Shown: piece after piece, positions 365-15,490 of the stretch | Position numbering within the stretch: position 1 is the first letter of the stretch | How the letters are laid out: every line of letters starts with the position of its first letter | Assembly: GCA_009919175.1 (NCBI GenBank) | Contig: RGCL01000012.1 | Coordinates: forward strand, 1 to 55,432 | Source: Betaproteobacteria bacterium | GTDB lineage: Bacteria > Pseudomonadota > Gammaproteobacteria > Burkholderiales > Burkholderiaceae_C | Length of the DNA stretch: 55,432 nucleotides | Direction: 5' to 3' | Program-made: the position numbers and the translations under genes | Notes under the pieces: model-generated | The model's input: only the letters and a program-made list of their open reading frames with translations | Databases searched by the model: none | Told to the model about the DNA's origin: nothing

Positions 365-1258
365 ATGTCGATTTACATCAACAAAGACACCAAAGTCATC
401 ACCCAGGGCATCACCGGCAAAACCGGTCAGTTCCACACTGAAAAGTGCCAGGAATATGCCAATGGCAAACACTGCTTCGTCGCTGGCGTGAACCCCAAAA
501 AAGCGGGCGAAAAAATCTTTGACATCCCCATTTATGCCAGCGTCAAGGAAGCCGCCAGCCAGACGGGCGCCACGGTGTCGGTCATTTACGTGCCGCCTGC
601 CGGTGCGGCTGCAGCCATCTGGGAAGCCGTCGAGGCCGATCTGGATCTGGCCATCTGCATCACCGAAGGCATTCCTGTTCGCGACATGCTTGAAGTGCGC
701 AACAAGATGAAAGCCAAGGAAGCCGCTGGCGGCAAGAAAACCCTGCTGCTGGGTCCCAACTGCCCCGGCCTCATCACCCCCGATGAAATCAAGATCGGCA
801 TCATGCCCGGTCACATCCATAAAAAGGGCCGCATTGGCGTGGTCTCGCGCTCTGGCACCCTGACCTATGAAGCCGTGGCTCAGCTCACCGAGCTCGGGCT
901 GGGTCAGTCCAGTGCCGTGGGCATTGGTGGCGACCCCATCAACGGCCTCAAGCACATCGATGTGATGAAGGCCTTCAACGATGATCCCAACACCGATGCT
1001 GTCATCATGATTGGCGAAATTGGTGGCCCCGACGAAGCCGAGGCCGCCCGTTGGTGCAAAGCCAACATGAAAAAGCCCATCGTGGGCTTCATTGCTGGCG
1101 TGACGGCCCCTCCGGGCAAGCGCATGGGTCACGCAGGTGCGCTGATCTCTGGCGGCGCCGATACGGCCGACGCCAAATTGGCCATCATGGAAGAGTGCGG
1201 CTTCAAGGTCACCCGCAACCCCTCCGAAATGGGGCGTTTGCTGAAAACTTTGATCTAA
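365..1258 (+). CDS. sucD: Succinyl-CoA synthetase alpha subunit
   Basis: This 297-residue protein has the normal family length. Residues 1-130 form a Rossmann CoA-binding domain (MSIYINKDTKVITQGITGKTG at the start). The ligase domain contains GHAGALISGG, with the catalytic phosphohistidine at about H256. It pairs with SucC to make the alpha2beta2 (or alpha-beta) TCA-cycle enzyme. The start ATG at 365 is preceded by an AGGAAA ribosome-binding site at about 353-358. Two tandem hairpins follow the stop, so the sucCD transcript probably ends here. Confidence 0.98.
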   Translation: MSIYINKDTKVITQGITGKTGQFHTEKCQEYANGKHCFVAGVNPKKAGEKIFDIPIYASVKEAASQTGATVSVIYVPPAGAAAAIWEAVEADLDLAICITEGIPVRDMLEVRNKMKAKEAAGGKKTLLLGPNCPGLITPDEIKIGIMPGHIHKKGRIGVVSRSGTLTYEAVAQLTELGLGQSSAVGIGGDPINGLKHIDVMKAFNDDPNTDAVIMIGEIGGPDEAEAARWCKANMKKPIVGFIAGVTAPPGKRMGHAGALISGGADTADAKLAIMEECGFKVTRNPSEMGRLLKTLI

Positions 1259-1267
1259 AGCCCGGCT

Positions 1268-1320
1268 AAACCCCATTAACATCGGGGTTTTCCTCCAAGC
1301 CCGAGGGAACTCGGGCTTTG
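1268..1320 (+). terminator. Two tandem hairpins after sucD
   Basis: The first hairpin is AAACCCC (1268-1274) paired with GGGGTTT (1284-1290), with a 9-nt loop and a short T run. The second is a perfect 9-bp stem AAGCCCGAG (1297-1305) / CTCGGGCTT (1310-1318) with a GGAA tetraloop. Neither has a long U tract, but position and stability fit termination of sucCD. The second lies only 23 bp before the next start codon. Confidence 0.6.
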
Positions 1321-1341
1321 TGCTTTCTGGGAGACGCACAC

Positions 1342-2028
1342 ATGGATTTTTCCAATACAGACTTTTGGGTGGGCTTGCTCAAGATCATCTGGATCAACAT
1401 CATCCTGTCCGGCGACAACGCCGTGGTGATTGCTTTGGCCGCCCGTTCATTGCCAGCTCACCAGCAGCGAATGGCCATCCTTTTGGGCTCAGGGGCGGCT
1501 GTGGTGCTTCGCATCATCTTGACCTTGGTGGCCGTATGGCTCATGTCCATCCCATATTTGCAGGTTGTGGGCGGCCTTTTGTTGCTTTGGATTGGCATTC
1601 AGTTGTTGCAAGGTGAAGGGGAGGAGGAGGGTGAGGATGTGACCCATTCCACCCTGATCCAGGCCGTCAAAACCATTTTGATCGCAGACTTGGTGATGAG
1701 CCTGGACAACGTGATTGCAGTGGCCGCCGCAGCCAAAGGCTCCATGCTCTTGCTCATCATTGGATTGGCCATCAGCATTCCCCTCGTGGTCTTTGGTTCA
1801 ACCCTGATGATCCGCCTCATGGAGCGATTCCCCGTGGTCGTGACGCTGGGAGCCGCCCTCATTGGTTGGGTCGCCGGCGAGACCATTTCGTCGGACGCCG
1901 TCTTCAAAGGGGTGTTGGCGGAGTGGCCCTGGATGCACTTTGCGGCAGCCGGCTTGGGCGCGGTGATTGTGCTGGGGTGGGGCCGCTTGTCCCGCAAGCA
2001 CCCCCCCGAAGAGCCTGGGGCAGCCTGA
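1342..2028 (+). CDS. TerC/YjbE family integral membrane protein
   Basis: A 228-residue polytopic membrane protein. Two family-type acidic motifs sit in membrane segments: SGDNAVVIALAAR near residue 20 and MSLDNVIAVAAAAKG near residue 120, separated by an acidic loop (GEGEEEGED). TerC/YjbE proteins are thought to export or handle metal ions such as Mn2+ or Ca2+ at the inner membrane. The substrate here cannot be read from the sequence. The ATG at 1342 is preferred over an in-frame upstream start at 1318 because GGGAGA (1329-1334) is a good ribosome-binding site and MDFSNTDFW is the usual N-terminus. No metal riboswitch fits in the short upstream gap. Confidence 0.88.
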   Translation: MDFSNTDFWVGLLKIIWINIILSGDNAVVIALAARSLPAHQQRMAILLGSGAAVVLRIILTLVAVWLMSIPYLQVVGGLLLLWIGIQLLQGEGEEEGEDVTHSTLIQAVKTILIADLVMSLDNVIAVAAAAKGSMLLLIIGLAISIPLVVFGSTLMIRLMERFPVVVTLGAALIGWVAGETISSDAVFKGVLAEWPWMHFAAAGLGAVIVLGWGRLSRKHPPEEPGAA

Positions 2029-2050
2029 GGCGGTCAATCGCCGAGTGTCA

Positions 2051-2075
2051 CTGACCCCGCTGGGATCAGCTTTTG
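2051..2075 (+). terminator. Possible weak terminator after the TerC gene
   Basis: CTGAcCCC (2051-2058) can pair with GGGaTCAG (2062-2069), with one mismatch and a 3-nt loop, followed by CTTTTG. It is short, so this is only a candidate. Confidence 0.3.
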
Positions 2076-2082
2076 TTGAACA

Positions 2083-2108
2083 TCACCCTCCTTTGAACTG
2101 GAGGGTGA
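2083..2108 (+). promoter_or_regulatory. Hairpin that sequesters the pilin ribosome-binding site
   Basis: TCACCCTCC (2083-2091) is perfectly complementary to GGAGGGTGA (2100-2108), with an 8-nt loop. The 3' arm contains the Shine-Dalgarno sequence GGAGG, which ends 5 nt before the pilin ATG at 2110. In the folded RNA the ribosome-binding site would be fully paired. This geometry suggests translational control (RNA thermometer, antisense or protein-opened switch). The function is inferred from structure only. Confidence 0.55.
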
Positions 2109-2109
2109 C

Positions 2110-2643
2110 ATGGATCTCAATCGTTTCCAATCGCAAAGCCCGCGTTCTGCGGGCTTTTCTCTCATCGAGTTGATGGTGGTGGTGGCCATCTTGGGTGTGC
2201 TGGCCTCGTTTGCACTGCCGGCTTATCAAGACTACACCGTGCGTGCTCGCGTGAGCGAAGGCCTGGCGCTGGCCAGTGCGGCCAAGGCCCAGGTGCTCGA
2301 TGTGCTGGGCAGTGCAGCCAGTGCGCCAGCAGGCTATGCGGCGGGGTATTTGCCGCCATCGCCCACCAAGAATGTGGCGAGCATTGCAGTTGAAGCCAAT
2401 ACCGGGGTGATCACCATCACCACCACGGCACTCGCAGGCAACGGCACCCTCAAGCTGGTGCCTTACGTGGGTAGCCCAGACGCTGCCACTGCATTGCCCG
2501 ATGCCACCACAGCTTTCACGCCACCGGCGGGAGCCAATGTGGGCTGGCGTTGCCTGGCTCAGGGTGCCACAGCGCCAGGCGGCATCAACCTGAGCGCGCC
2601 TGCCAGCTTGCAGGCCAAATGGGCGCCAGCCGAGTGCCGATGA
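2110..2643 (+). CDS. Type IV pilin-like protein (prepilin N-terminal methylation domain)
   Basis: A 177-residue protein. Residues 14-30 carry the class III prepilin signal [16 protein letters not shown]: cleavage by prepilin peptidase after Gly, mature N-terminal Phe, and Glu at +5. The hydrophobic helix continues into [18 protein letters not shown], typical of PilA-type major pilins of Betaproteobacteria. Two C-terminal cysteines (GWRCLAQG and AECR) can form the pilin D-loop disulfide. It would be assembled into a type IV pilus or pseudopilus in the inner membrane/periplasm. No assembly genes are adjacent, so it stands alone. The ribosome-binding site is buried in the preceding hairpin. Confidence 0.9.
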
Positions 2644-2807
2644 GGCGCATTGCTGAACGCAGACCAGGAACTGGCCATGGCTGACGCCATTTATAAAACT
2701 TAATTCATAGATCAAGGCTCAAAATGCTGAAATGGATCGCAAATGTCATGCTTATTTTGAGAAGTTTGATGATCAAATGAGGGCATCAATCAACTCAAGG
2801 ACCTTTG

Positions 2808-3179
2808 ATGAAAAACCGTTTGAAGATCAGCTTTGTCATGCTCGCATTGGCACTCACAGCTTGTGGCTCTTCCGGCCCCGGCTCGACCTTGCTCGAAATG
2901 CGCAAGAAGATGTGCGAAGCCAAAAACATCACCCCCATGGTCGAGTACACCGCACCCGAATCACAGGCCGTGATTGGCATGGCTGCAGCCATGTTCAATG
3001 ACCCGACCAAAGGTCCCAAACTCAAGGCCGACCTGGAAGAGTCTTGCAAGTCCAAGCTGGAAGTGGTGTCTGAAAAGGTCGACGGCGACACGGCATTGGT
3101 TCAGCTCAATGATGGCAAAGAACCCACCACGATGAAGAAGATCGATGGGAAATGGAAGATGGTCATCACCAAAAAATGA
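2808..3179 (+). CDS. Small lipoprotein, DUF4878-like
   Basis: A 123-residue protein with a lipoprotein signal peptide and lipobox LTAC at about residues 16-19. The mature part is one small alpha/beta domain (LLEMRKKMCEAKNITPMVEY ... DTALVQLNDGKEPTTMKKIDGKWKMVI), resembling DUF4878/NTF2-like lipoproteins whose role is unknown. AAGGA at 2797-2801 is correctly spaced from ATG 2808. Its stop overlaps the next start (ATGA at 3176-3179), so the two proteins are probably made together and may act together in the cell envelope. Confidence 0.75.
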   Translation: MKNRLKISFVMLALALTACGSSGPGSTLLEMRKKMCEAKNITPMVEYTAPESQAVIGMAAAMFNDPTKGPKLKADLEESCKSKLEVVSEKVDGDTALVQLNDGKEPTTMKKIDGKWKMVITKK

Positions 3180-3760
3180 GTCTGAGGATCGGGCTCATCA
3201 GCCTGTTGTCCGTGGTGGCTTTGGCCATTGCCGGACACAGGCTTTTTTATTTCCACCAGCCGTTGGGGATGCAGGTCCAAGGGATAGAAGCCCACCATGG
3301 CGACCTCATCTTCAGACAAGGCAAAGGCGTTTGGTCGCCCTATTTTGCGGGCTTGAATTCAAGCACGGGGTTTAGCCATGTGGGCGTGTTGATCCAATCC
3401 GGTGAAGGCTTTGACGTTTTACATGCCGATGCAGACGACATCAGCCAGGTCGGAGGGGTGCAAAAAACACCTTTGTCGCAATTTGTGCAGGAGTCACTCA
3501 CCGTCAAGGTCAAGTCCAATCACATGCCGCAGCAACTCAAAGACGCGTTCATCCGTCATCTCGTGCTCATGCATGAACAGCACTTGGCGTTTGACTCGAA
3601 CTTTGAAATCAACGACAACGGCTCAAGGGTGTATTGCACTGAATATGTATGGCTCGCGGCCATGCGGGCAGGCATCAAAGACCTGGGCGAAGTCATCACC
3701 CTGATGGGCAAGGACCTGATCCTGGTTGACTCAATTTACCAGTCGCGCTGGATCAACTGA
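3176..3760 (+). CDS. YiiX/YebB-like permuted papain-fold hydrolase (C92 family)
   Basis: A 194-residue protein with an N-terminal membrane/signal segment (residues 4-25), then HHGDLIFRQGKG, GFSHVGVLIQSGEGFDVLHADAD and a later RVYCTEYVW. This order (His motif before Cys motif) is that of the circularly permuted NlpC/P60-like YiiX family. H in FSHVGV and C in YCTEY are the likely catalytic pair. Such enzymes are thought to cleave amide or ester bonds in envelope or lipid substrates. The start at 3176 overlaps the stop of the lipoprotein gene, implying translational coupling. An upstream in-frame start at 3152 would overlap more and looks less natural. Confidence 0.82.
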   Translation: MSLRIGLISLLSVVALAIAGHRLFYFHQPLGMQVQGIEAHHGDLIFRQGKGVWSPYFAGLNSSTGFSHVGVLIQSGEGFDVLHADADDISQVGGVQKTPLSQFVQESLTVKVKSNHMPQQLKDAFIRHLVLMHEQHLAFDSNFEINDNGSRVYCTEYVWLAAMRAGIKDLGEVITLMGKDLILVDSIYQSRWIN

Positions 3761-3818: not shown

Positions 3819-6800
3819 TCAACCTGAGATCACGATGTTCGCGGATAGCACCTTGCTGGTCAGCGAGGAGTCGTATTGAGATTGCGTCAGGAACAGGTCA
3901 TTGCCATCGGTCAGCTCAATGGCAGAGATGGAGTCGACCACAGCCAGCATGTCATCAAAGTAATGCGCGATGTTGTCAGCGGTGTCGGCTACGCGGATGG
4001 AGTCCACCGAATTTGCAGCCGAAGACGACACGGCATCCATTGCCAATACATCCGTCAAAGACAGGTGGTAAGACCCATTGGTGATCTTGGAGAGCACATC
4101 AGTGCTGGCAGCGAATTGATCTGCTGTGAGAACAATTGGCGCGGTGCTGTCATCGAGGGTCACGCTGGTGAGCTTGTCACTCAATGCCAACACGTCATCA
4201 AATGAACCCGAGATGTTGTCGCTGGTATCGCTGATGGCGATGGAGCTCACTTTGGACAAACTGATGGTAAATGGCTCGGTGGCACCCGGATTCAAGGTGA
4301 TGGCGTCGTAGGTCGCGCTGGGCAAGAGCAGGCTCAGGTTGTCTGTGCTCACCCCTGTGATGCTCAGGCGATAGTCACCCGTGAACTTGGCCAGGGTATC
4401 AATCAGATCGTTTGCGCCTGCAAAGTCATTCAAGTCCGATTGAGACACCTCAAGCGGCGCATCGTCGACCGTTACCGCAAGCGAGGTGAATTTGCCTGAC
4501 AACGCGGCCAGGGTCGACAAAGAAGCATTGATGTTGGAGGTCGTGTCGCTCAACGCAAACCCGACCACATGACTGTCTTGATCAAGGTCGCTTGCATGGG
4601 TGATCGATGCATCGCTGACATTGACGCTGTAGGTGTCGATTTTGGTGAAGACATCCGTGCTGCTGCTGTACTGGGTGTAATCCAGCGACATCGCTTCGTC
4701 TGGCGTGGCATTGGTGATGCTGGCTAGCTTGGTGAATTGCCCCAGATCCGAGAGATGGTTTGCGATGTTGTCGCTGTCATCGGCAACGGTGAAGCTCACC
4801 ACCTTGTCATCGATATCCAAGTCAGACGCTTGAGCGACATCAGCGCCAGACACATTCACGGAGTAATTGCCATCCACAATCTTTGCCAGTGCCGCTTCGT
4901 TGCTGCGGTATTGATCCACTGTCATGTCCATGGGTGAAGTCGACCCGGAGTCGTTCACTTCAATTGAATCAATTTTTGACAGCACGGTGGAAATGGCCCC
5001 CAAGCTTGCACGAATGTTGTCCGTGGTGTCTTTCACGGCAATCTGGCTCACCCGGGAATTGGACGCCGTGACAAATGCGCCCGCTGCGCTCACATTGGTC
5101 AGTGACACATCAAAGGCATTGGTGATCTTGTTGAGCACGACTTGATTGGCGATCCAATCGCTGTAGCCCAGGGTCAAGGTTTCTGGTGAATCACTGAGTT
5201 CGATGGCATTCAACTTTGCCCCAGCCGAAGTCAGATCGCCAAGATGAGCTTGAACGTTGGCTGCCGAATCTGAAATCGTCATGCTGGTGACGCGGCTGTT
5301 GCTCACCAGGTCTGCGACATCGCTCACTTGTGCGCCATTGACCTTCAAGCTGTAAGGTCCAACCATCTTGCTCAGTGCGGGATCGAAGTCGACGATTTGC
5401 GCAACCGTGAGTTCCAGGGGTTTGGCCACACCCATTTGCGCGATGGATGTCAATTTGCTGTTTGCGCTCAGTTGCGCAAGAGACGATGAGATGTTGTCGC
5501 TTCGATCGTAGACGGCAATGGATTGAACATGGGCTTCATTCAACAAACTGGCTGCGTCAGCTGCGGTGGCGTTGCTGACAGACAGCGTGTAGTTGCCGTC
5601 GATCTTGTCCAGTGTGGTGCCCACGGTGCTGAATTGGGCCATCGACAACTGAATTGCGTTGGATGCAGCATCTGTGACCGAGATGGCCGTGAGGCCCGAT
5701 CCGAGTCCATGCAGCGCACTGAGCTTGGCTGAAATTTGATCGGCGGAGTCACTCACCGACACATGCTCAACACGGCCATCGGCAAGCAAATTTTTGGCTT
5801 GTGCGGCTTTGACTTCGGTGAGATTGACATGAATGGCATTTTGGAATTTCTTCAACAAAATGGCATTGGAGGCCCACTGGTCCTGAGTCATCTCCATACT
5901 GTTAGCGGGGTCGCTTTGCTCTAGGCTCGTGACCTTGGTGCCCAGGCTCGTCAAGGCGCTCAGTTTGTCCAAAATCGCCTCGCCCGTATCCTTGATCGTG
6001 ATGCTGGCCACGCGGGGATTGGTCAAGGTCGTTGCAGCGTTATCCGCACTCACGCCGGTGACGCTCATGCTGTATGAGCCTGAAATGCAAGCCAGTGCGG
6101 CCGCATCCGATGCCAATTGACCTGCAGTGATCTGCACCGTTTTGGGCGGACCAATGAGTCGAATGGCAATGGGCACCGTGCGACCCTGGCTGCCCAAGTC
6201 GGTGATGGCTGCCTGAATGTCGTCCAACTTCAACGCCACATTGGAGATGGTGTCGCTGATGGAAATGGAGGTCACCCTGGAGTCAGCGGCGAGATCCGTG
6301 ATTTGCCTTGAATCTGCAAATTTGATGGCAAATGATGAATTGAGGAACTTGTCGATCGTTGCTTTTTGATTGGCCCATTGTGACGCAGTGATGCTGATGC
6401 TGCTGCCAGGGTCTGATTGCTCAACCGCTTTGAGTTTGGGTCCGAGTCGATTGAGCCCGTCCATCACAGCGGACAAGCTGCTGCCAGTGTCTTTGACCGA
6501 CATGGACTTGATCCGTGCGTCATTGGCCAGTGACAGTGCACTGGAGGACTTGACTTGGCTTAACTCCACCGCATAACCACCCTGCACTTTATTCAGAGAA
6601 GGTTGAAGGTTTCGCCACTCGGTTTCAGACATTGAAAAACTGCCGTTGTCACTGTTGACAATGGTGCCCAATTTACTGGCCAGCTTGGCAATGTCGCTGA
6701 GTTTGCTGTTGAGGTTGGCAGCGGTGTCGGCGACATTCACCGACACGATTCGTGAATTCCCAGTGGCAAGCGAAAGGGCAGAGGCAGCCGGTGCGCCATT

Positions 6801-8066
6801 GATCTTGATGGCATAGTTGCTCTTGATCTTTGCAATCACAGCGGCGTTGTCATTGAACTGTGAAAAATTCAGGTTGAGCAAACTCGATTTGCCTGAAAGT
6901 TCAATGCCTGTGATTTTGGTGTTGGTCTGCAAGCCGTCAATGGCCGCTGAAACGGCATCTGCGCTGTCAACGATTGACACACTGGACACCCTTGAATCGC
7001 CAAACAGCATCTGAGCCTGTGTGGCCGTTGCTTGAGAAATCCCAACCTTGAAATTCTGCGTGGTGATTTTGTCAATCACATCAGAGAAGTTGTTCATTTG
7101 GAGGCTGGTGATCTTCAGCGGATTGATGGCATCTTTCACTTTGACTGCGGTCAGGCTTGAACCCAGCTTCTTGAGCAAAGCCATGTTGTTCGAAAGATTC
7201 GCCGCCGTATCTTCGACGGTGACACTCACTACTTTTTTGTTGTCCGCCAGCAATGCGACCTGATCCGTGCTGGCACCCACAACCGACAGCTGGTAACCCT
7301 TGTAGAGGCGGCCGATGACCAGGCCATCGGTTTGCATTTGAGATGCATTGATGGTGAACACATTGCTGTCGCTGCCCTTGACTTCTTTGAGCCGCAGGCC
7401 CAGATTGACCAAATCATCCAGGCCACTTGAGATGGAGGCTGCGGTGTCCTGGACTGCCACCGATTTGATGCGGTCATTGTTGATGTAGCCCACAGCCTGA
7501 CTGACGGTTGCGCCCGAGACCGCGAGGCTGTAGTTGCCAGATATCTTTCCAATCAGGCTGGCACTCGATTGAAGCTGGGTTGCAGTGAGCGTGACATCGT
7601 TGGCAGGGGTGGTCAGTACAACTTGTGAAATCTTTCCTGCATCGCTCAAACCTTTGAGCACATTGAGCTGGCTACTGACCTTGGCGCTTGTATCGACGAT
7701 ATTGAGTGTTTTCACATGGGGCTTGGCGGCCAATGTGCTGGCATTGCTGGCTTGTACATTGGTCACATTCAGCTGATAGTTGGAAGTGAACTTGCTCAGC
7801 AATTTGCTGTACTGCGTGAATTCGGCTTCTGTCACATTCAAGGACGTTGCAGCATTGGTCTGAACGACAGCCGTCACGCTATTGGCGTAGACATTGAGCA
7901 ATCCCAGGTTGCGATTGATGTTCTCCGTGCTGTCATTGATTCTGACGGTCAGATTGGGATTGGATTTCAATGCGGCAAGCGCCACGCTCACGCTCACTGG
8001 TGAAGTCAGTGCCGTTTGCGAGAAGTAATTGGATGACGCAACTTTGCTTACAGCCATAGTCATCAT
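3819..8066 (-). CDS. Giant repeat protein: about 17 degenerate ~83-residue beta-strand-type repeats
   Basis: A 1415-residue acidic, Ser/Thr/Asp-rich protein built from start to end of one repeat. Each unit has V-x-S-[IV]-x-[VI]-x-D-[ST]-x-x-N/x-I followed by L-x-x-L-x-x-L-x-[ST], then S-[LI]-x-[LV]-x-D, L-[ST]-x-x-Q-x-x, and I-x-x-x-Y-x-[LV]-x-V-[ST]-x-[VA]. I count 17 D[STD]xxxx[IVL] markers. The type is known from large extracellular beta-strand-repeat proteins of proteobacteria. There is no Sec signal peptide, so type I secretion or another leaderless route is possible, but no exporter gene is in the window. The function is unknown; surface adhesin or matrix protein is the simplest guess. 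The first of two tandem ATGs (MMTMAVSK) is used, with only a weak ribosome-binding site. Confidence 0.85.
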   Translation of the reverse strand: MMTMAVSKVASSNYFSQTALTSPVSVSVALAALKSNPNLTVRINDSTENINRNLGLLNVYANSVTAVVQTNAATSLNVTEAEFTQYSKLLSKFTSNYQLNVTNVQASNASTLAAKPHVKTLNIVDTSAKVSSQLNVLKGLSDAGKISQVVLTTPANDVTLTATQLQSSASLIGKISGNYSLAVSGATVSQAVGYINNDRIKSVAVQDTAASISSGLDDLVNLGLRLKEVKGSDSNVFTINASQMQTDGLVIGRLYKGYQLSVVGASTDQVALLADNKKVVSVTVEDTAANLSNNMALLKKLGSSLTAVKVKDAINPLKITSLQMNNFSDVIDKITTQNFKVGISQATATQAQMLFGDSRVSSVSIVDSADAVSAAIDGLQTNTKITGIELSGKSSLLNLNFSQFNDNAAVIAKIKSNYAIKINGAPAASALSLATGNSRIVSVNVADTAANLNSKLSDIAKLASKLGTIVNSDNGSFSMSETEWRNLQPSLNKVQGGYAVELSQVKSSSALSLANDARIKSMSVKDTGSSLSAVMDGLNRLGPKLKAVEQSDPGSSISITASQWANQKATIDKFLNSSFAIKFADSRQITDLAADSRVTSISISDTISNVALKLDDIQAAITDLGSQGRTVPIAIRLIGPPKTVQITAGQLASDAAALACISGSYSMSVTGVSADNAATTLTNPRVASITIKDTGEAILDKLSALTSLGTKVTSLEQSDPANSMEMTQDQWASNAILLKKFQNAIHVNLTEVKAAQAKNLLADGRVEHVSVSDSADQISAKLSALHGLGSGLTAISVTDAASNAIQLSMAQFSTVGTTLDKIDGNYTLSVSNATAADAASLLNEAHVQSIAVYDRSDNISSSLAQLSANSKLTSIAQMGVAKPLELTVAQIVDFDPALSKMVGPYSLKVNGAQVSDVADLVSNSRVTSMTISDSAANVQAHLGDLTSAGAKLNAIELSDSPETLTLGYSDWIANQVVLNKITNAFDVSLTNVSAAGAFVTASNSRVSQIAVKDTTDNIRASLGAISTVLSKIDSIEVNDSGSTSPMDMTVDQYRSNEAALAKIVDGNYSVNVSGADVAQASDLDIDDKVVSFTVADDSDNIANHLSDLGQFTKLASITNATPDEAMSLDYTQYSSSTDVFTKIDTYSVNVSDASITHASDLDQDSHVVGFALSDTTSNINASLSTLAALSGKFTSLAVTVDDAPLEVSQSDLNDFAGANDLIDTLAKFTGDYRLSITGVSTDNLSLLLPSATYDAITLNPGATEPFTISLSKVSSIAISDTSDNISGSFDDVLALSDKLTSVTLDDSTAPIVLTADQFAASTDVLSKITNGSYHLSLTDVLAMDAVSSSAANSVDSIRVADTADNIAHYFDDMLAVVDSISAIELTDGNDLFLTQSQYDSSLTSKVLSANIVISG

Positions 8067-8225
8067 GACTCGGCAGTAGTTCTTCTATCTTGAATATTTC
8101 GCGCTCAATCAACACCAAAGGAATTTATTTTGGGCTGATGATCCACACTAAAGGATTCAAGGCGGCTTTGAGTGCCCTTTGACGCGATCAGATGCGGGTT
8201 GCCCCGGCTCGGCTGTGAAGGTCAG
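8067..8225 (-). promoter_or_regulatory. Upstream region of the giant repeat gene
   Basis: This AT-rich 160-bp stretch separates the repeat-protein start from the displaced moaC 3' end and must hold the promoter of the repeat gene (unless it is read through from upstream). I see no strong -35/-10 pair or operator. Confidence 0.35.
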
Positions 8226-8334
8226 TCAACTCGAGATCCAGTCCCCGCTCTTGCCCCCGTGCTTTTCGAGCAGCTTCACCTCGCTGATGGTCATGCCCCG
8301 GTCCACGGCCTTGCACATGTCGTAAATGGTGAGC
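8226..8334 (-). pseudogene. moaC: Detached 3' end of moaC (left copy)
   Basis: The minus strand encodes [19 protein letters not shown], then [13 protein letters not shown], and ends ISS-stop (stop at 8226-8228). This is the C-terminal third of molybdopterin-precursor synthase MoaC with no start or body attached. Bases 8236-8334 are identical to the 3' end of the moaC at 13441-13889. It is best explained as the 3' end displaced when the island inserted, so that it now marks the island's left edge. Confidence 0.85.
8236..8334. repeat. 99-bp direct repeat, left copy (candidate attachment site)
   Basis: All 99 bases match 13451-13549 in the same orientation. Identity stops abruptly on both sides (8235 G vs 13450 C; 8335 A vs 13550 C). 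The two copies bracket the integrase-bearing island, as attL/attR do. Confidence 0.92.
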
Positions 8335-8367
8335 AAAAGAGATTTGAACAACATCCTGAGGGTTTAG

Positions 8368-8386
8368 TTGGACAAAATTTGGACAA
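8368..8386. repeat. Paired TTGGACAA motif, candidate integrase arm site (left)
   Basis: TTGGACAA occurs at 8368-8375 and again at 8379-8386, exactly 11 bp (about one helical turn) apart, 34 bp inside the left 99-bp repeat. A related pair (TGGACA at 13379-13384 and TGGACG at 13390-13395, also 11 bp apart) lies near the right repeat. Position and spacing suggest arm-type binding sites of the element's recombinase. Confidence 0.45.
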
Positions 8387-8577
8387 GGATTCCTGACCAA
8401 TTGCAGAGTAGTTCAAGTCCTATGAACTTGCTCGTTGGCCTTGTACGTGGCTCTAGCTGGTGGTGCACCTGCTGCTACTAGCTTCAGTGGTGTGGCTGTT
8501 GATGGATACTTTTACCAAGCGCGTGCATTATTAGCATCCCCATCCAGATCACACGATCTAAGCCATTCAATCTATTT
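8387..8577. other. Left end of island, no intact gene
   Basis: This short stretch follows the response-regulator gene. The plus strand at 8435-8584 can encode about 49 residues starting at a TTG, including SFSGVAVDGYFYQARAL. That resembles the 'SGVAVDGY..GA' opening of modules in exported proteins, so it may be the remnant of a lost cargo gene. Otherwise nothing recognisable is seen. Confidence 0.3.
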
Positions 8578-9219
8578 TCATTGAGATTTGGCTCGATGCA
8601 CTGAATCACTCTCAAGCGCCAAGCCTTGGGTGAACCGCATGAGCTCAGATAGTGAATTCAATTGCAATTTCTGCTTGATCTGGGTTTTGTATTGTTTGGT
8701 GGTTGCCAATGAAATATGGAGCGCATCAACGATTTCAGCATTGCCATATCCACTACACATCAAAAACAAGACCTCGCGTTCCCGTGGTGTCAAATCAAGC
8801 AAGCTCCTCTGACGATCAGCTTGCTGACGCTTCATTTCAGACAGCCGGATGTGTGTCAGCATGCCAAGTGCGACGGCGTCCAATAACTCTTTACGGTCAA
8901 AAGGCTTGATGAGGAAGTCGTGGGCGCCCAACTTCATGGCTTGGATCGTCTGCCTAGGGGTACTGACAGCACTGATGTAAATGATGGGAACCGTGCAGCC
9001 CATTGCAATGAGTTGACGATGCAGCTCCAAGCCACTCATCCCCTTCATGCACATGTCTGTGATGATGACCGAAGGATATTGATTGGGCAGGTGCGATAAA
9101 AAAACCAGCGGGTCTGTCCATACCCGCACTTCATGTCCAACAGAGGTCAGCAAATGGTGCATCGCCTCGGTAAGACCAATGTCGTCGTCGACCAAATCAA
9201 TGTGCCCTAGGTTTTGCAT
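8578..9219 (-). CDS. Two-component response regulator, FixJ/NarL type (receiver + LuxR HTH)
   Basis: About 213 residues from the chosen ATG at 9219. The receiver domain shows the acidic pocket VDDD (residues 10-13), phosphoacceptor D55 in ITDMCMKGMSG, and the conserved Lys in LIKPF. The C-terminal LuxR/GerE helix-turn-helix is LTPREREVLFLMCSGYGNAEI followed by HISLATTKQYKTQIKQKL. The start is set by GAAG six bases upstream and by the receiver beginning at GHIDLVDDD; the longer in-frame extension to 9309 lies inside the kinase gene. It overlaps the kinase gene's end by about 23 bp, so the two are co-translated. It should bind DNA once phosphorylated by the neighbouring kinase. The targets are unknown, perhaps island genes. 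Confidence 0.88.
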   Translation of the reverse strand: MQNLGHIDLVDDDIGLTEAMHHLLTSVGHEVRVWTDPLVFLSHLPNQYPSVIITDMCMKGMSGLELHRQLIAMGCTVPIIYISAVSTPRQTIQAMKLGAHDFLIKPFDRKELLDAVALGMLTHIRLSEMKRQQADRQRSLLDLTPREREVLFLMCSGYGNAEIVDALHISLATTKQYKTQIKQKLQLNSLSELMRFTQGLALESDSVHRAKSQ

Positions 9220-10621
9220 AAACATCTTCGACTGAGTTGAATTGCAAAAGGAAACGGCTTCCCTGTCCGTCAACAGGAAGCCAGCGGATGTGACCGCCAT
9301 GACGCTCAATCATGTATTTAGACAGCCATAGACCAATTCCCATCCCCCCTGATTTATTCGATACAACAGGGGTAAACAATTTATGTCGCATTTCTTCAGA
9401 CACGCCGCAACCCGAGTCCGTGATCTCAATGAATATCATGTCCTCCACCCTCCACGTGGATATTTCAAGTCGGCGGCTAGATGCACTTACTTGGTCAAGT
9501 GCCTCCATGGAATTTCGAAATAAAATTCCAATCACGTGCATCAATTCATCAGGGGGAAAATTCAACTTTGCACCTGACTTCAAGTTGAGCTTGAATTGAA
9601 CCAAGGCCTGAGTTAATTCACTCTGATGATGACGAATGAAATGTTCGATCAAAACATCAGGCTCTGTACTTTCGCCAAATGTAGGTGGCCGCTGAAAAAC
9701 CCTTTTGATGCGTTGAATGATTTCGCTGCATGTTTGATTGTCTCTGGCAATTCTTTGCAGAATGACACTCAGATTCGAGTAATTGGCGCTTTCGGCATGA
9801 ATCCGCAAAGCCTCTTCGATGTTGAGTTGAATGGAGGCGATGGGTTGATTAATTTCGTGCGCGATCGAAGCTGAAAGTGCGCCCGCTTGATTCAGTCGAT
9901 TCATCACGGCTGCAGTTTCGCTTTCTTTTGCGGCCAAGAGCTTGGCAGAATTTTGCAGCAGAAGCCGTTGATTTTTTTCGACAACAAATCCCCAATATCC
10001 ATAACAGTAAAAAACAACGCTGACATAGTTAAGCAGCAAGATGGCATTTGATACAGACGAAAAGTCCATGAGTCGATGCCAATGGCCGTTGAGCCAAAAG
10101 TCAAAAAGCCTATATAAATTTGAGCTCACAAAAAATAAAAGAACGAAAAGAATCAACACCAGTGCTTTGCTGTTGGTTTGATTCTTGATTCGCCAGATGT
10201 TGGAAATCAAGATCAACTCCAGCACCACTAAGGCCATGAAGTGAAGCTGCTGCACCTCAGGATGCGCGAACCCTTGCGCCGAAGCTGCATACAGAATCAG
10301 CCACTCAGAAGCCAGCACGGCTAGGTAGGTTTTTAATGGGGCGGGGGACTCACTCAGTTCCCGACGGCTGGACTCGATCATGCTGAGCAAACTGGCAGTG
10401 GTGAGCACGTTGATCAGTGGAGAAGCCAGTCCAACAAGATGAGCTTGAGCGAACATGAATAGCGTTGCAGCTAATGCATAAAAAGCTGTGCCCAAGAACC
10501 AAAACCGCGCATTGATGTTGCGCTGATTGGCAAGCACCCACCACGCACTGATTGGGGTGAGCCAAAAGATGATCAACCCGGACCAGAAGAACAGCGCCAA
10601 GGGTTCAGATGGTTGGGCCAT
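9197..10621 (-). CDS. Membrane sensor histidine kinase, FixL-like catalytic core
   Basis: A 474-residue protein. Residues 8-212 contain six or seven hydrophobic segments (an integral membrane sensor, no PAS domain seen). A short coiled linker leads to the dimerisation/phosphoacceptor motif ASIAHEINQPIASI with H255. The ATPase domain has NSMEALDQV (N box), ITDSGCGV (G1) and GGMGIGLWLSKYMIERHGG (G2). HEINQP is typical of FixL/NtrB-like HisKA kinases paired with FixJ-type regulators, matching the downstream gene it overlaps. The input signal is not evident. The sequence is AT-richer than the flanking chromosome, fitting cargo acquired with the island. No strong ribosome-binding site precedes the ATG. 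Confidence 0.9.
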   Translation of the reverse strand: MAQPSEPLALFFWSGLIIFWLTPISAWWVLANQRNINARFWFLGTAFYALAATLFMFAQAHLVGLASPLINVLTTASLLSMIESSRRELSESPAPLKTYLAVLASEWLILYAASAQGFAHPEVQQLHFMALVVLELILISNIWRIKNQTNSKALVLILFVLLFFVSSNLYRLFDFWLNGHWHRLMDFSSVSNAILLLNYVSVVFYCYGYWGFVVEKNQRLLLQNSAKLLAAKESETAAVMNRLNQAGALSASIAHEINQPIASIQLNIEEALRIHAESANYSNLSVILQRIARDNQTCSEIIQRIKRVFQRPPTFGESTEPDVLIEHFIRHHQSELTQALVQFKLNLKSGAKLNFPPDELMHVIGILFRNSMEALDQVSASSRRLEISTWRVEDMIFIEITDSGCGVSEEMRHKLFTPVVSNKSGGMGIGLWLSKYMIERHGGHIRWLPVDGQGSRFLLQFNSVEDVYAKPRAH

Positions 10622-10647
10622 TGATGAGGAAGGAGTCAGTCGTTAGA

Positions 10648-11013
10648 TCAATGTTTGAGATGTCGAGGCACCTCGATCGCGTCACTGGCTTCATCGAGTT
10701 TCGATTTCTCCCTGCATTGTCGGATGTAAAGCATGGGCAGGGTTTTTTTATGGAGCTGAAACAAATTGATTAAATCTCTGTGGGAATATCCGCTTTCGCG
10801 AATCAGATCTTCCCAGCCAATATTGGAATGGACATGTCGATGAATCCATTCACACAGTTGATCTATTCGAACTGCATGGTTGTCTGGTTTGTACTCTGAA
10901 TGGTTCAAAATGCCCACATGCGATGGATAAAGAAAAGATCCTAAATTGGTGGTCACTGCTACACAATCCGACGAACGTAGGAGTAATGATGAACCGAGGC
11001 TCGTGTTGATCAA
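10648..11013 (-). pseudogene. AraC-type regulator remnant
   Basis: A 121-residue frame. Residues 48-105 (RIDQLCEWIHRHVHSNIGWEDLI, then RESGYSHRDLINLFQLHKKT) resemble the first helix-turn-helix of AraC-family DNA-binding domains. The normal second helix-turn-helix is missing: the protein ends DAIEVPRHLKH. The N-terminal sensor domain is also mostly absent, and the only start is TTG. It is probably a truncated remnant, although a short expressed regulator cannot be excluded. It lies 26 bp upstream of the kinase gene in the same direction, so the original full-length regulator may have belonged to the same operon. Confidence 0.5.
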
Positions 11014-11043
11014 GTCACAGTGTTGTCTGCAGGTGGCTTACCC

Positions 11044-11436
11044 ATGAGCCAGTCAGATTTGTTGTTCATCTATGGGACTCTGTTGCCGGGCTTGAAACTG
11101 GAGCAAGAGATGGCTGGTGCAGAGTGCTTGGGTCACGCCGAGGTGAGGGGGCATTTGTATGACATCGGGTGCTACCCCGGTCTCGTGGACGGAGAGGGGT
11201 GGGTTAGCGGTGAAATTCATCGCGTGAGCCCCGCTCACCTCCATCGTCTGGACGCGATGGAAGAGGTCGTAGCAGATGATCGGAGTGCCTCGCTCTATTG
11301 GCGCGAACGCATCAAGGTCGAGACGGGCGCACATGCGGGAGAGTCGGTTTGGGTCTATCGGTACAACAAGGCGGTAGAGGGGCTCAAACTCATCCCGGGC
11401 GGTGACTATCGGCGGTATTTACTTGGTAGCCAGTAA
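11044..11436 (+). CDS. Gamma-glutamylcyclotransferase-like protein (AIG2/YtfP fold)
   Basis: About 130 residues from ATG 11044. The N-terminal LLFIYGTLLPGLKLEQEM is the glycine-rich substrate loop of the BtrG/AIG2-like fold. LYDIGCYPGLVDGEGWVSGEI and HRLDAMEEV carry the typical beta-barrel and the likely catalytic Glu. Family members release 5-oxoproline from gamma-glutamyl amines or peptides (glutathione or gamma-glutamyl conjugates); the substrate here is unknown. It is divergent from the AraC remnant and about 100 bp ahead of the caspase gene in the same direction, possibly on one transcript. Confidence 0.8.
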   Translation: MSQSDLLFIYGTLLPGLKLEQEMAGAECLGHAEVRGHLYDIGCYPGLVDGEGWVSGEIHRVSPAHLHRLDAMEEVVADDRSASLYWRERIKVETGAHAGESVWVYRYNKAVEGLKLIPGGDYRRYLLGSQ

Positions 11437-11533
11437 ATCACAGACGCAATTTGGTCCCAGCTCAAAATGCCGTTCGAGACATGGGGATTTGACCCGGCTT
11501 GAGGGGTGGGCTGCCGAGAACTAAACTTGACTC

Positions 11534-12874
11534 ATGAAGCATCTGTTTCGCCTTCTTTTATTACTGATCCCGCTGACCGCTGTGGCTCAGTCGTCCTTGC
11601 CGCCGTGCCCGCCCACTGGGGTGAAGCACATGTGCTTTGGGGATCAGATTGGAAGAAATACAGAGGGCGTTGAATGGAGGTATGTTGGTGAATTCAAAAA
11701 CGATCAGCGTAATGGCCAAGGCATCCTTACATTTTCGGACGGAGAAAAATACGTTGGAGAATGGGTCTATGGCTTTCGTTTTGGGATCGGATCAAACACC
11801 TACTCTAATGGTAATAAATATGTAGGTGAGTGGTATTTTGATCAACGATATGGAGAAGGGATTGAATACCAATCTAATGGTGTAGTGATGCGATCAGGAA
11901 AATGGGTGAATGACCATTTAAGCGATTTTTATTCAATTAATCTTGATCTTTTTCCCTTCCATGCTGATTTATTCAAGATAACCTCTTTAAGATCTTCTAA
12001 TCCTTTAAAAGCTGAGAGAGATCGTTCACGAGCAGAGGCTGCCGTCGCATATAGGCGACGGCAAGAAATCGAAGAACGCTCTGTACAAGAAAAAGCCGAT
12101 AAAGAAAGACGGGCCGCGCTGGTGACGAACCAAGCTCCCGCTCCACAACGCTCGCCCACCCTTGCTTCTGGCCTTACTGAACGCCGCGTGGCCTTGATCG
12201 TCGGCAATTCCAAGTATGCCCACAACCCGCTGGACAACCCCGTCAATGACGCCGCAGATCTCGACACAACACTCAAGAATCTTGGCTTCAAGACCACCCT
12301 ACTGCGTGACGCCAACATCACCCAGATGCGCAATGCCACCCGGCAATTTGCCGATGACGTTGCCAGCAGCGATGTCGCATTGATCTTCTTTGCCGGGCAC
12401 GGCATTGAGGCCAAGGGACGCAACTACCTCATCCCTGTCTCAGCCGACATCAAGCACGAGTATGAGCTGGAAGATCAGGCCTACGACGCCGGGCGCTGGC
12501 TCGACATGCTCGAAAACATCAAAGGCATCAACAAGCAGCGGGTCAATATCGTGATCCTCGACGCCTGCCGTAACAACGACCTCTCACGGGGCTGGCGCTC
12601 ATCCAGTAGAGGGTTGGCTCGTATGGATGCGCCAAAGGGCACTTTCATCGCATTTGCAACCGCTCCCGGCAAGGTGGCGATGGATGGCGCAAAAGGGCAG
12701 CGCAATAGTCCCTTCACCAAGAACCTCCTGCGAACAATTCAAACGCCGGATATGCCCATAGAGCTGATGTTCAAAGAGGTCAGGCGGCTAGTTCTTGAAG
12801 ACACCAAGGATGAACAAGTGCCTTGGGACAATTCCAGCCTCGTTGGAGACTTCGTTTTTAAACGTTCGCGGTGA
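11534..12874 (+). CDS. Secreted MORN-repeat caspase-like protease (peptidase C14 p20 domain)
   Basis: A 446-residue protein. It has a signal peptide at residues 1-19 (cleavage near AVAQS) and MORN repeats at about 48-120 (YVGEFKNDQRNGQGILTF, YVGEWVYGFRFGIGSNTY, YVGEWYFDQRYGEG). A charged coiled-coil linker spans 160-195 and a caspase p20-like domain spans 215-440. The catalytic dyad is readable: H289 in FFAGHGIE and C345 in ILDACRNND. Bacterial caspase homologues of this type cleave after Arg/Lys or Asp and often act as effector or defence proteases. This one should be periplasmic or surface exposed. The MORN and linker part is much more AT-rich than the protease domain, as if two segments of different origin were joined. 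It is island cargo whose partner is unknown. Confidence 0.87.
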   Translation: MKHLFRLLLLLIPLTAVAQSSLPPCPPTGVKHMCFGDQIGRNTEGVEWRYVGEFKNDQRNGQGILTFSDGEKYVGEWVYGFRFGIGSNTYSNGNKYVGEWYFDQRYGEGIEYQSNGVVMRSGKWVNDHLSDFYSINLDLFPFHADLFKITSLRSSNPLKAERDRSRAEAAVAYRRRQEIEERSVQEKADKERRAALVTNQAPAPQRSPTLASGLTERRVALIVGNSKYAHNPLDNPVNDAADLDTTLKNLGFKTTLLRDANITQMRNATRQFADDVASSDVALIFFAGHGIEAKGRNYLIPVSADIKHEYELEDQAYDAGRWLDMLENIKGINKQRVNIVILDACRNNDLSRGWRSSSRGLARMDAPKGTFIAFATAPGKVAMDGAKGQRNSPFTKNLLRTIQTPDMPIELMFKEVRRLVLEDTKDEQVPWDNSSLVGDFVFKRSR

Positions 12875-13363
12875 ACGCCAGTTTTTTCTCCCTCGTAGCT
12901 CCTCCCTCATTGTTAAAAAATGAGGTATCAGGTATGTTGACTCCCCATTCCCTGCGAGCGTGGTTGATGATCGCCGACAGATACGCCAGTTCTCGAATGA
13001 CAGTTCCCGAGCTGACCTCCCTGAGTCGCTCGTCTCTATAAGCCGCAATCCGGGCAGCACTGAGGTTCGTCATGCTCCACTGTGCAATGGGTTTGCGCAT
13101 GATGGCCTTGAGTCGGATCGTGTCCTCGGCTGCCCCCTTCATGGTTGGGGTAACTTCTACCAGATACCGCCCGATCAACTCACCCAAGGACGTCCTCTGG
13201 TTTCAGTGATGCTGACGAAATGTCCTTTATCTATGTCGGACTCAACCGATCGAGCCCACTTCTCGGCGTCGACCTTATTTTGAAAAGTTTTAGTCTGGGC
13301 GGGGTAACCATGCCTGAGCACACGGGCCTGCCATTTGCCGCCACGTTGTCTAAAAGAAGCCAT
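12858..13363 (-). pseudogene. Tyrosine recombinase/integrase, frameshifted and truncated
   Basis: The N-terminus from ATG 13363 (MASFRQRGGKWQARVLRHGY, then PAQTKTFQNKVDAEKWARSVESDIDKGHF) is the arm-binding start of a widespread proteobacterial site-specific integrase family. Near 13175-13187 the frame shifts. The core-binding domain continues in another frame with LGELIGRYLVEVTPTMKGAAE through to INHARREWGVNIP. After that, family similarity stops and the frame runs into the end of the caspase gene. The whole catalytic domain (R...HxxR...Y) is missing, so the protein is inactive. It sits 88 bp from the right 99-bp repeat, as expected for the gene that inserted the island. Confidence 0.88.
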
Positions 13364-13378
13364 TTCCTGATCCTCGGA

Positions 13379-13395
13379 TGGACAGGAGTTGGACG
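13379..13395. repeat. Paired TGGAC motif, candidate integrase arm site (right)
   Basis: TGGACA at 13379-13384 and TGGACG at 13390-13395 lie 11 bp apart between the integrase start and the right 99-bp repeat. They mirror the TTGGACAA pair at the left end of the island. Confidence 0.35.
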
Positions 13396-13440
13396 AATTA
13401 CCTTTTGATGACGTGTCGGCCTAGCCAAGGTTGGCAGCTC

Positions 13441-13889
13441 TTAACCCGCCATCCAGTCCCCGCTCTTGCCCCCGTGCTTTTCGAGCAGCTTCACCTCGCT
13501 GATGGTCATGCCCCGGTCCACGGCCTTGCACATGTCGTAAATGGTGAGCCTTCCATTTCCACGCCGGTCTGGCCGTGGGTTTCGGCTTGCGACACACACA
13601 CCACATGGGGCGGGCTGTCGTGGACCTGGAAGTCCACGGTGACGCGGGTGAGGGCAATGGGGTGACACAAGGGGATCAAGTCGCTCGTGCGTTTGGAGGC
13701 CTGAATACCGGCGATGCGCGCCACACCCAGGACATCACCCTTTTTGGCGGTGCCGCTTTGAATGAGGCTCAGGGTATGGGGGCTCATTGCAATGCGCCCT
13801 TGGGCGCGAGCCATGCGGTGGGTGTGGGCTTTGTCACCCACGTCCACCATGTGCGCTTGTCCTTGAGAGTCAAAATGCGTCAACGACAT
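13441..13889 (-). pseudogene. moaC: Cyclic pyranopterin monophosphate synthase MoaC, frameshifted
   Basis: From ATG 13889 (GAGG ribosome-binding site six bases upstream) the protein reads normally: [28 protein letters not shown], up to TGVEME near residue 115. Family members continue with about nine residues like ALTAVSVAA and then [10 protein letters not shown]. Here about 25 bp are missing, and [10 protein letters not shown]...SGDWMAG-stop follows in another frame. The frame actually used ends at 13506 after [14 protein letters not shown]. The lost part includes the YDMCK segment with the family's catalytic Asp and Lys, so the 127-residue product should be inactive in molybdenum-cofactor synthesis. 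The break lies exactly at the edge of the 99-bp repeat. Confidence 0.85.
13451..13549. repeat. 99-bp direct repeat, right copy (candidate attachment site)
   Basis: Identical over all 99 bases to 8236-8334, same orientation. Here the repeat is joined to the body of moaC and supplies its 3' end. Its inner edge coincides with the frameshift in moaC. Confidence 0.92.
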
Positions 13890-13951
13890 GAAGGCCTCGC
13901 CCGAGTCAACTGAGGGGCAGATCATACGTTCGACAGGGATCACTTACATTC

Positions 13952-15490
13952 ATGCCTATGTCCACCCCCTTCAAGCGACTGATCTCTGCCCTGTTGGCGG
14001 CAGGATTGCTGCTGCACCCTTCGCTGGGCGTGGCGCAAACCTCCAAGCCACTGCCTCGCCTGGGGGATGACACCAGCTTGAGCTATGCCCAGGAGCAACT
14101 CATCGGGCAGGGCGTGGTGATGCAGTTGATGCGCTCGCCCCAGCTAGAGACGGATGCCTTTTTGCAAGACCATGTGATGGGCATGTGGAAGCGCTTGCGC
14201 GAGGGCGCAGTCAAGCAAGGGTTGCTCAGCATCGAGCAAGAGAAATTTTTCACCTGGGATGTGTTCCTTCTCAGAGACCAGGAGCTCAACGCATTTGCCC
14301 TGCCGGGCGGCTACATGGGTTTGAATCTGGGTTTGATGGCCACCGTGGACAACGAGTCTGAACTGGCCGCCGTCATGGCGCACGAACTCAGCCACGTCAC
14401 GCAACGCCACATTGCGCGCATGTTCACCAAAAATGAACGCGACATGCCGCTGGTGTTGGGCGCCATCTTGTTGGGGGTCTTGATCGCTGGGCAAAGCAGC
14501 CAGGGTGCCCAGGCCTTGATCACCGGCGGTCAGGCCGCAGGTGTTGCATCCCAGTTGAGTTTTTCCAGGGACATGGAACGCGAGGCTGATCGCTTGGGGC
14601 TCATGGTGCATTCGGCTGCTGGCTACGAGGCCAAGGGTTTTGTGGGCATGTTCAGGCAGTTGTCCTTGGCCTCACGCCTCTATGACTCGCAGTCGTACCC
14701 CTACCTCAGATCCCACCCACTCACCACCGCGCGCGAGGCCGACATCATGGCCAGGGTGCAGCAAATGGACAGTGCGCCCGAGCCTCTACAGAGTTTGAAC
14801 TTTGCCATGGTCAGGGCGAGGTCTCAGGTCTTGCTGCTGCCCACAGGCGAGCTCGACCGCATCATCCAGCTCAACGAAGCCATCAAGGCGGGCATGCCCG
14901 CCGCGCAGTTGGCCGCCTCGGCCTATGCCAAGGCTTTTGCCTTGCTGCGCAAAGGTCAGCCTGACGCGGCCCTGGCGGCTTGGCAGACGCTGGATGCGCT
15001 CGTGCCCCTGCCTGACCAGGCTCGCACGTGGGTTCAATCGCTCAAGGCAGAAATCCTTCTGGATCAACGCAAGCCCTCCCTGGCACTGGAGGCCTTGGGC
15101 AAAGGTCCTCTGACTCGGGCGCAGCGCTTGCTCAAGGCGCGCGCACAACTGGTCTCAGCCGATGCGGGTCTGCTGCGCAATGCCATTGAGGACCTCGAGT
15201 TCTTGTCGGCGCTCGACCCCAGGGATGCCGCAGTCTGGGAGTTGGTCGCTCAAGCCTGGCAAAGTGAAGGCCACCCCTTGCGCGCCTTGCGCGCTCAGGC
15301 CGAAGCCCACCACGCACGCTACGACGACCGTGGGGCTTTGGACCGGTTGCGGGCAGCCCTGGACCTGGGCGATCGTTTGCGCAAGCAAGGGCAGCTCAAG
15401 ACAGAGGACTGGCAAGACCTGGAGATCATTCAGGCGCGTTGGCGCAGCATCAGCGAGCGGCTGCAAGCCCTTCTGAAATCCCGTTCTTGA
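13952..15490 (+). CDS. M48 family metalloprotease with TPR repeats, BepA-like
   Basis: A 512-residue periplasmic protein with a signal peptide (residues 1-29, ending GVAQ). The zinc-protease motif HELSH is at 144-148, with the third ligand E211 in MEREADRLG. A glycine-rich loop (ALPGGYMGLNLGL) precedes the active site, as in the M48 family. Residues 310-505 are helical TPR-like repeats. BepA proteins act in outer-membrane protein quality control (LptD and BAM substrates). It is divergent from moaC with 62 bp between starts. An alternative ATG at 13958 would drop two residues only. Confidence 0.9.
   Translation: MPMSTPFKRLISALLAAGLLLHPSLGVAQTSKPLPRLGDDTSLSYAQEQLIGQGVVMQLMRSPQLETDAFLQDHVMGMWKRLREGAVKQGLLSIEQEKFFTWDVFLLRDQELNAFALPGGYMGLNLGLMATVDNESELAAVMAHELSHVTQRHIARMFTKNERDMPLVLGAILLGVLIAGQSSQGAQALITGGQAAGVASQLSFSRDMEREADRLGLMVHSAAGYEAKGFVGMFRQLSLASRLYDSQSYPYLRSHPLTTAREADIMARVQQMDSAPEPLQSLNFAMVRARSQVLLLPTGELDRIIQLNEAIKAGMPAAQLAASAYAKAFALLRKGQPDAALAAWQTLDALVPLPDQARTWVQSLKAEILLDQRKPSLALEALGKGPLTRAQRLLKARAQLVSADAGLLRNAIEDLEFLSALDPRDAAVWELVAQAWQSEGHPLRALRAQAEAHHARYDDRGALDRLRAALDLGDRLRKQGQLKTEDWQDLEIIQARWRSISERLQALLKSRS

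Follow-up and report, generated by a model that had tools for sequence, protein, structure and literature searches.

Positions 8228–13549 of the window, by which we mean the whole 55,432-nucleotide stretch analysed here, very probably represent a decayed integrative element, belonging to a family whose insertion site is the moaC 3′ end. The basis for this reading is a repeat of the moaC 3′ end, the element ends, the homology and clade specificity of the integrase, and the full and empty sites of relatives. The host is a freshwater bacterium of a Limnohabitans-like genus, the name being taken from nearby loci. The copy in the window cannot by itself show the mechanism, and the case rests on its relatives.

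Results

A repeat of the moaC 3′ end borders a low-GC island

A repeat search of positions 7000–15000 returned a single direct-repeat family, with copies at 8228–8334 and 13443–13549 (107 bp at 97%). Within these, 99 bases of the moaC 3′ end are identical (8236–8334 and 13451–13549), the copies lying 5215 bp apart. A 23-base piece of the repeat occurred at these two places only in the window, against an expectation of 0 (100 shuffles), and the C-terminus of moaC is encoded by both copies (PF01967 positions 109–136). The original prediction had an island flanked by 99-bp perfect moaC repeats; repeat search and sequence comparison bear this out, with the second moaC tail present at the far border of the element. 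GC content is 46–50% at 8–12 kb, compared with 53–54% in the left flank (3–7 kb, itself low) and 58–62% on the right; the deficit of the island is greater against the right neighbourhood than against the left. The moaC gene lies on the minus strand and adjoins an M48 peptidase gene, and a gene near it is presumably purB. Just past the displaced moaC tail, positions 3819–8066 hold a repetitive ORF of 1415 aa that has no Pfam match. The features of the island and its borders are collected in Table 1.

Table 1. Features of the element in the window and of the adjoining moaC gene.
Feature	Position	Strand	Evidence or remark
Displaced moaC 3′ end (attR side)	8228..8334	-	8236–8334 identical to 13451–13549
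Right-end GTCC-N7-GTCC pair	8370..8384	-	surrounding right end resembles that of G047
Cargo: FixJ-like response regulator	8578..9309	-	PF00072, PF00196; NF006900 match below its cut-off
Cargo: sensor histidine kinase, 474 aa	9197..10621	-	PF02518, PF00512
ORF of 121 aa	10648..11013	-	without Pfam family
Cargo: gamma-glutamylcyclotransferase-like protein	11020..11436	+	PF06094, 80 bits
Cargo: MORN and caspase-like peptidase, 446 aa	11534..12874	+	PF00656, 135 bits; PF02493; PADLOC caspase model
Integrase remnant	12861..13363	-	starts with ATG at 13363; frame shifts near 13200; lacks the catalytic half
Left-end GTCC-N7-GTCC pair, candidate integrase arm sites	13380..13394	-	motif search and reading of the sequence
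moaC 3′ end, integrase-side copy (attL side)	13441..13549	-	stop codon 13441–13443; GCGGGTTAAGA tail common to G047, absent from displaced copies
Gap of ~25 bp relative to relatives' moaC, frame broken	13549..13551	-	spanning moaC matches 24 or 25 bases longer
moaC 5′ part, 113 codons before the frame breaks	13551..13889	-	PF01967 positions 1–100, 128 bits; tblastn

The integrase remnant and foreign-looking cargo that had been proposed to lie between the repeats were both recovered. The remnant matches the intact integrase of genome G047 at 70% (residues 2–65) and 74% (residues 67–155) identity, numbered in the 338-aa frame, and the cargo is of low GC. The remnant also matches PHROG 1 integrase and, as far as its partial sequence goes, sits directly after moaC, in the same place as the G047 integrase. 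Past approximately residue 155 the window holds no recognisable integrase sequence, and hence no intact catalytic domain; a genome search returned no further copy of this integrase. Among the island proteins of the window scanned with Pfam there was no replication family. The five cargo proteins had no match inside the islands of relatives (16 loci, E 1e-3) and three weak matches outside them. The caspase-like protein had seven genome matches including itself, one of them, on contig C192, 73% identical. With its integrase broken and no replication gene of the relatives' type seen, the element is not expected to move alone, and the copy in the window is a defective relic that should not be self-mobile now. 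Neither the frameshift and truncation of the integrase nor the ~25-bp gap in the host moaC had featured in the original prediction.

Related integrases follow moaC in other genomes

The integrase was matched at E 1e-15 or better in 19 of the 84 genomes of the genus, and directly after moaC in seven. Those at moaC are whole in G047 and G042, and cut by the contig end in G852, G020 and G011, the last also diverging past approximately residue 240. Frameshifted integrases are present in G035, where the contig ends as well, and in the window; at least two of the seven are therefore broken. At the level of the family, 41 of 399 genomes had a match at 1e-40. Thirty integrase loci were examined out of 56 places in these 399 genomes, and moaC was directly upstream in nine. 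These nine integrases were closest to the query in tblastn (49.5–69% identity), the other 21 loci, none of them at moaC, reaching at most 46%. The width of this gap depends on the aligner, because in the identity column of another alignment some integrases away from moaC reach 49–51%. At class level (369 genomes), one of 11 loci had the integrase after moaC. Among 80 moaC loci of named records, an integrase match or piece followed the gene immediately in five: L049, L061 (Collimonas sp. OK607), L075 (Limnohabitans sp. Rim28), L106 (Ralstonia soli) and L122. Integrases of this family are thus found beside moaC in the genus and in other genera, as the original prediction would have it.

In a tree of 34 rows, from which rows of <190 residues were left out, the moaC-adjacent integrases formed one clade (support 100/97). 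A second tree, of 43 rows, gave a clade of 18 rows (100/99) that includes two members located at pntB (see below); the remnant of the window is in neither tree. Viral contigs yielded only distant or short integrase matches and ten listed phage records yielded matches of up to 38%, with no close relative in either set, and one plasmid record fell into the 60–80% band of the integrase search. In G003 (L186, oriented 1178–3271), a caspase gene is next after moaC, with neither an integrase nor a second tail.

Full and empty sites in congeners

Genome G047 (two contigs, 100% complete) carries an intact moaC followed at once by an integrase of 327–338 aa, and 8.3 kb further a second moaC tail (193 bp at 98%, of which 178 bp are identical). 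Beyond this tail lies a gene that we take to be glycosyltransferase-like. Directly after moaC in the congener G057 comes the same glycosyltransferase-like gene, and a single moaC tail was present within the 11.5 kb examined. Both observations accord with the original prediction, under which relatives without the island should have an uninterrupted moaC and no second fragment of it. The right ends of the G047 and window elements resemble each other, in TTGTCCAAATTTTGTCCAACTAA and other blocks, as far as their entry into moaC, the entry point being at differing distances from the gene end in the two. The G047 island also contains a transposase gene with an rve domain (L025:8428–9291), presumably of the IS3 type. 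Among 60 congeners, a search for an empty site in a species close to that of the window was negative, full-length moaC matches reaching ~70% DNA identity at best. Together with the repeated adjacency, the single clade and the matching ends, the sites of G047 and G057 uphold the proposal that moaC serves as attachment gene for a tyrosine-recombinase family.

Second tails, element ends and gene content in relatives

Five genomes among 61 congeners contain a second moaC tail (the window's own, G011, G030, G047 and G058); in G030 and G058 it could not be connected with an integrase because the contigs end. In eight loci with an integrase or a remnant, the second tails span 90–193 bp at 74–100% identity. 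Besides those of the window and G047 given above, they are found in Rim28 (157 bp, 90%), G405 (90 bp, 74%), G274 (122 bp, 98%), G453 (158 bp, 99%), G109 (113 bp, 100%) and G406 (133 bp, 94%). Second tails also occur at two loci without an integrase match, L064 (203 bp, 87%) and L046 (46 bp, 96%), and at L049 (85 bp, 76%), where only an integrase piece is present; L068 and L090 gave short tail matches of doubtful meaning. No second tail was detected for G312 (19.9 kb examined), G365 (6.1 kb), L042, L061, L106 or L026 within DNA of limited reach. In G453 (L161, oriented 9111–13072), three successive moaC tails lie past one moaC, the two later copies being shorter, which is probably a pile of older insertions at one site.

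We tested ten elements, leaving out L046, for the motif GTCC-N7-GTCC. It immediately precedes both the integrase gene and the second tail in eight of them, the window included, and failed this both-end test in L161 and L049; three extra occurrences were seen in the eight positive loci. The motif may be the arm-binding site of the integrase. The integrase-side tail has GCGGGTTAAGA or GCGCGTTAAGA at its end in the window, in G047 and in G030. Because the displaced tails lack these endings, at least the last codons of moaC are apparently supplied by the element, as they are in e14/icd, and in the window the last codons of the integrase-side tail are probably element-encoded. Comparison of the tails with nearest relatives in three of nine cases did not decide which copy is native; of eight relatives compared for Rim28, four were closer to the far copy, three to the near copy and one equally close to both.

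Apart from the window, seven integrase-bearing islands measure 6.6 to 12.5 kb, the longest counting the pile of G453, and that of L064 is 1.7 kb. Island GC was below that of the rest of the locus in all eight islands measured, a set that does not contain the window. Protein scans covered a selection of island proteins, with L159 and L164 left out. Replication-type genes were encountered in L075 (VapE), L025 (AAA_25 with PriCT_2), L161 (D5) and L064 (Prim-Pol); PHROGs pointed to a primase-like protein in L160, and L165 encodes a DUF5906 protein that may be linked to replication. Because the relatives' islands (6.6–12 kb) carry such genes where scanned, they look satellite-like. Phage satellites with primase or VapE genes include those of the P4 and PICI type. 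The likeness to these lies in small size and in the presence of an integrase and replication-type genes in the relatives' islands scanned, whose selected proteins included no capsid family. The window's copy differs from them, as its scanned proteins yielded no replication gene.

Members of the integrase clade at pntB

Two integrases of the clade, nested inside the moaC rows, follow the 3′ end of a gene that we take, from its protein sequence, to be pntB: those of G052 (L215:8813–9826) and G843 (L214:4715–5704). A change of integrase target is likely in these genomes. The pntB tail agrees with the moaC core at 15–16 of 21 bases, a modest resemblance given that the best of 43 other ORF tails in the window agrees at 14. 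Neither G052 nor G843 showed a second pntB tail before the contigs end, ~11 and ~5 kb past the integrase start. The search for a crossover core by agreement of paired tails was weak: the columns of the loci were out of register in one comparison, and in another the agreement arose by construction, the anchor string having been sought in both copies.

The host moaC of the window appears frameshifted

The gap in the window's moaC coincides exactly with the inner border of the right-hand repeat, and no second moaC gene was found elsewhere in the genome. At the other integrase or element loci checked, moaC is one unbroken frame in 22 of 22 (21 distinct). The frame is not restored in the window, and we therefore describe its element as a degenerate derivative. 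Since the catalytic Asp and Lys of MoaC fall within the out-of-frame part, the protein is expected to be inactive. Genes for moaA and moeA are present in the genome, as are two members of the formate dehydrogenase alpha family, one above the curated cut-off and the other, a contig-edge fragment, below it. A third formate dehydrogenase candidate was rejected, as it is NuoG. Because moaA, moeA and formate dehydrogenase family genes persist, either moaC was lost only recently or this point of the sequence was misassembled.

We put at somewhat below even the chance that the gap is a real lesion tied to the element, as might arise where the homology ends if a cut by the integrase or a repair step failed, and that the strain has lost molybdenum cofactor synthesis. 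Such a lesion, to which an assembly error is the alternative, is compatible with the integrative-element reading. It would fit the meeting of gap and repeat border at one point and the lack of any other moaC. In addition, in five of the seven other integrase loci that have a second tail, the start of the homology falls within the stretch missing here or at its edge. The intact moaC of all other loci checked speaks against it, and the persisting molybdenum-related genes leave room for an assembly error.

Other possible origins of the repeat

Several observations count against an integrative element. The moaC gap adjoins the repeat border, a position not expected from simple site-specific integration, and the frame is not restored as it is beside the other elements; no empty site came to light in a close relative of the species; the cargo is unlike that of the relatives' islands; two integrases of the clade are at pntB; and several loci have no second tail. 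The genome is a draft of 248 contigs, and its sequence irregularity falls exactly at the repeat border, as might be expected if the repeat itself were an artefact of assembly or binning. Yet independent genomes, some of them nearly complete, share this layout and these element ends, and we consider such an artefact very improbable. Because the layout recurs in this way, assembly duplication is an unlikely source of the window's repeat and was set aside. A segmental duplication, or homologous recombination that needed no integrase, would account for copies that are identical over 99 bp in the window, 178 bp in G047 and 113 bp in G109, where element and host copies might be expected to differ, but the copies do differ elsewhere (74–94% in L075, L159 and L165), and the conserved element ends, the clade specificity of the integrases and the empty site of a relative make this origin exceedingly improbable.

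Discussion

The integrative-element reading suggests the following route. A tyrosine integrase would recombine a short site in the moaC tail with a matching site on a circular element, which would bring its own copy of the moaC tail; the circular intermediate is itself a presumption. After insertion, the host gene would end in the tail of the element, on the integrase side, and the original tail would be pushed to the far end, giving the direct repeat. The exact crossover point is probably no more than ~100 bp from the end of the gene, and may lie near GACATGTGCAAGGC. The far tail would then be the native one, and the copy in the window would once have been mobile by the same route.

The mechanism is of a known kind. 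The e14 prophage of E. coli, as described in two papers, inserts in the 3′ part of a housekeeping gene, icd, supplies the gene end, and leaves a displaced icd copy of 163–165 bp at its far end (PMC6379469, PMC11148124). Beside that length, and the 90–193 bp of the relatives here, the 99 bp that the original prediction had thought long for an att identity block is not exceptional. The e14 case differs in its target and in that icd stays functional, whereas the moaC of the window appears frameshifted; in addition, the moaC elements carry primase-type replication genes. The dusA islands likewise tie an integrase family to one conserved protein gene, with an element-derived gene end and varied cargo, but they use the 5′ end of dusA and attachment sites of ~21–28 bp, in contrast to the moaC 3′ end and repeats of ~90–193 bp (PMC4482086). 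For CMGI-A of Cupriavidus metallidurans, a table lists moaC (Rmet_4428) with the island; this island is of 87 kb, and the passage makes no attachment-site claim (PMC7019866). The original prediction knew of no standing of moaC as an integration hot spot, and the literature searched, in which subscription papers were thinly covered, likewise held no report of moaC as an attachment site; the word moaC is absent from the main texts of PMC12884075, PMC4482086 and PMC6379469. The moaC target and the integrase clade appear unreported in the searchable literature.

A broader proposal is that Limnohabitans and other betaproteobacterial genera harbour a distinct family of small satellite-like elements with the moaC 3′ end as attachment gene, able to switch to the pntB 3′ end via a similar short core (GAYATG..CAAGGC), and that the lesion seen here disables molybdenum cofactor synthesis. 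We offer this combination tentatively, and in its entirety it is rather doubtful.

An apparently unreported attachment gene, with an integrase clade of its own and recognisable ends, would make such elements findable by a simple rule. Since one clade contains both moaC and pntB targets, changes of integrase target could be studied in it. Finally, the broken moaC raises the question of whether hosts sometimes lose their molybdenum enzymes through such insertions.
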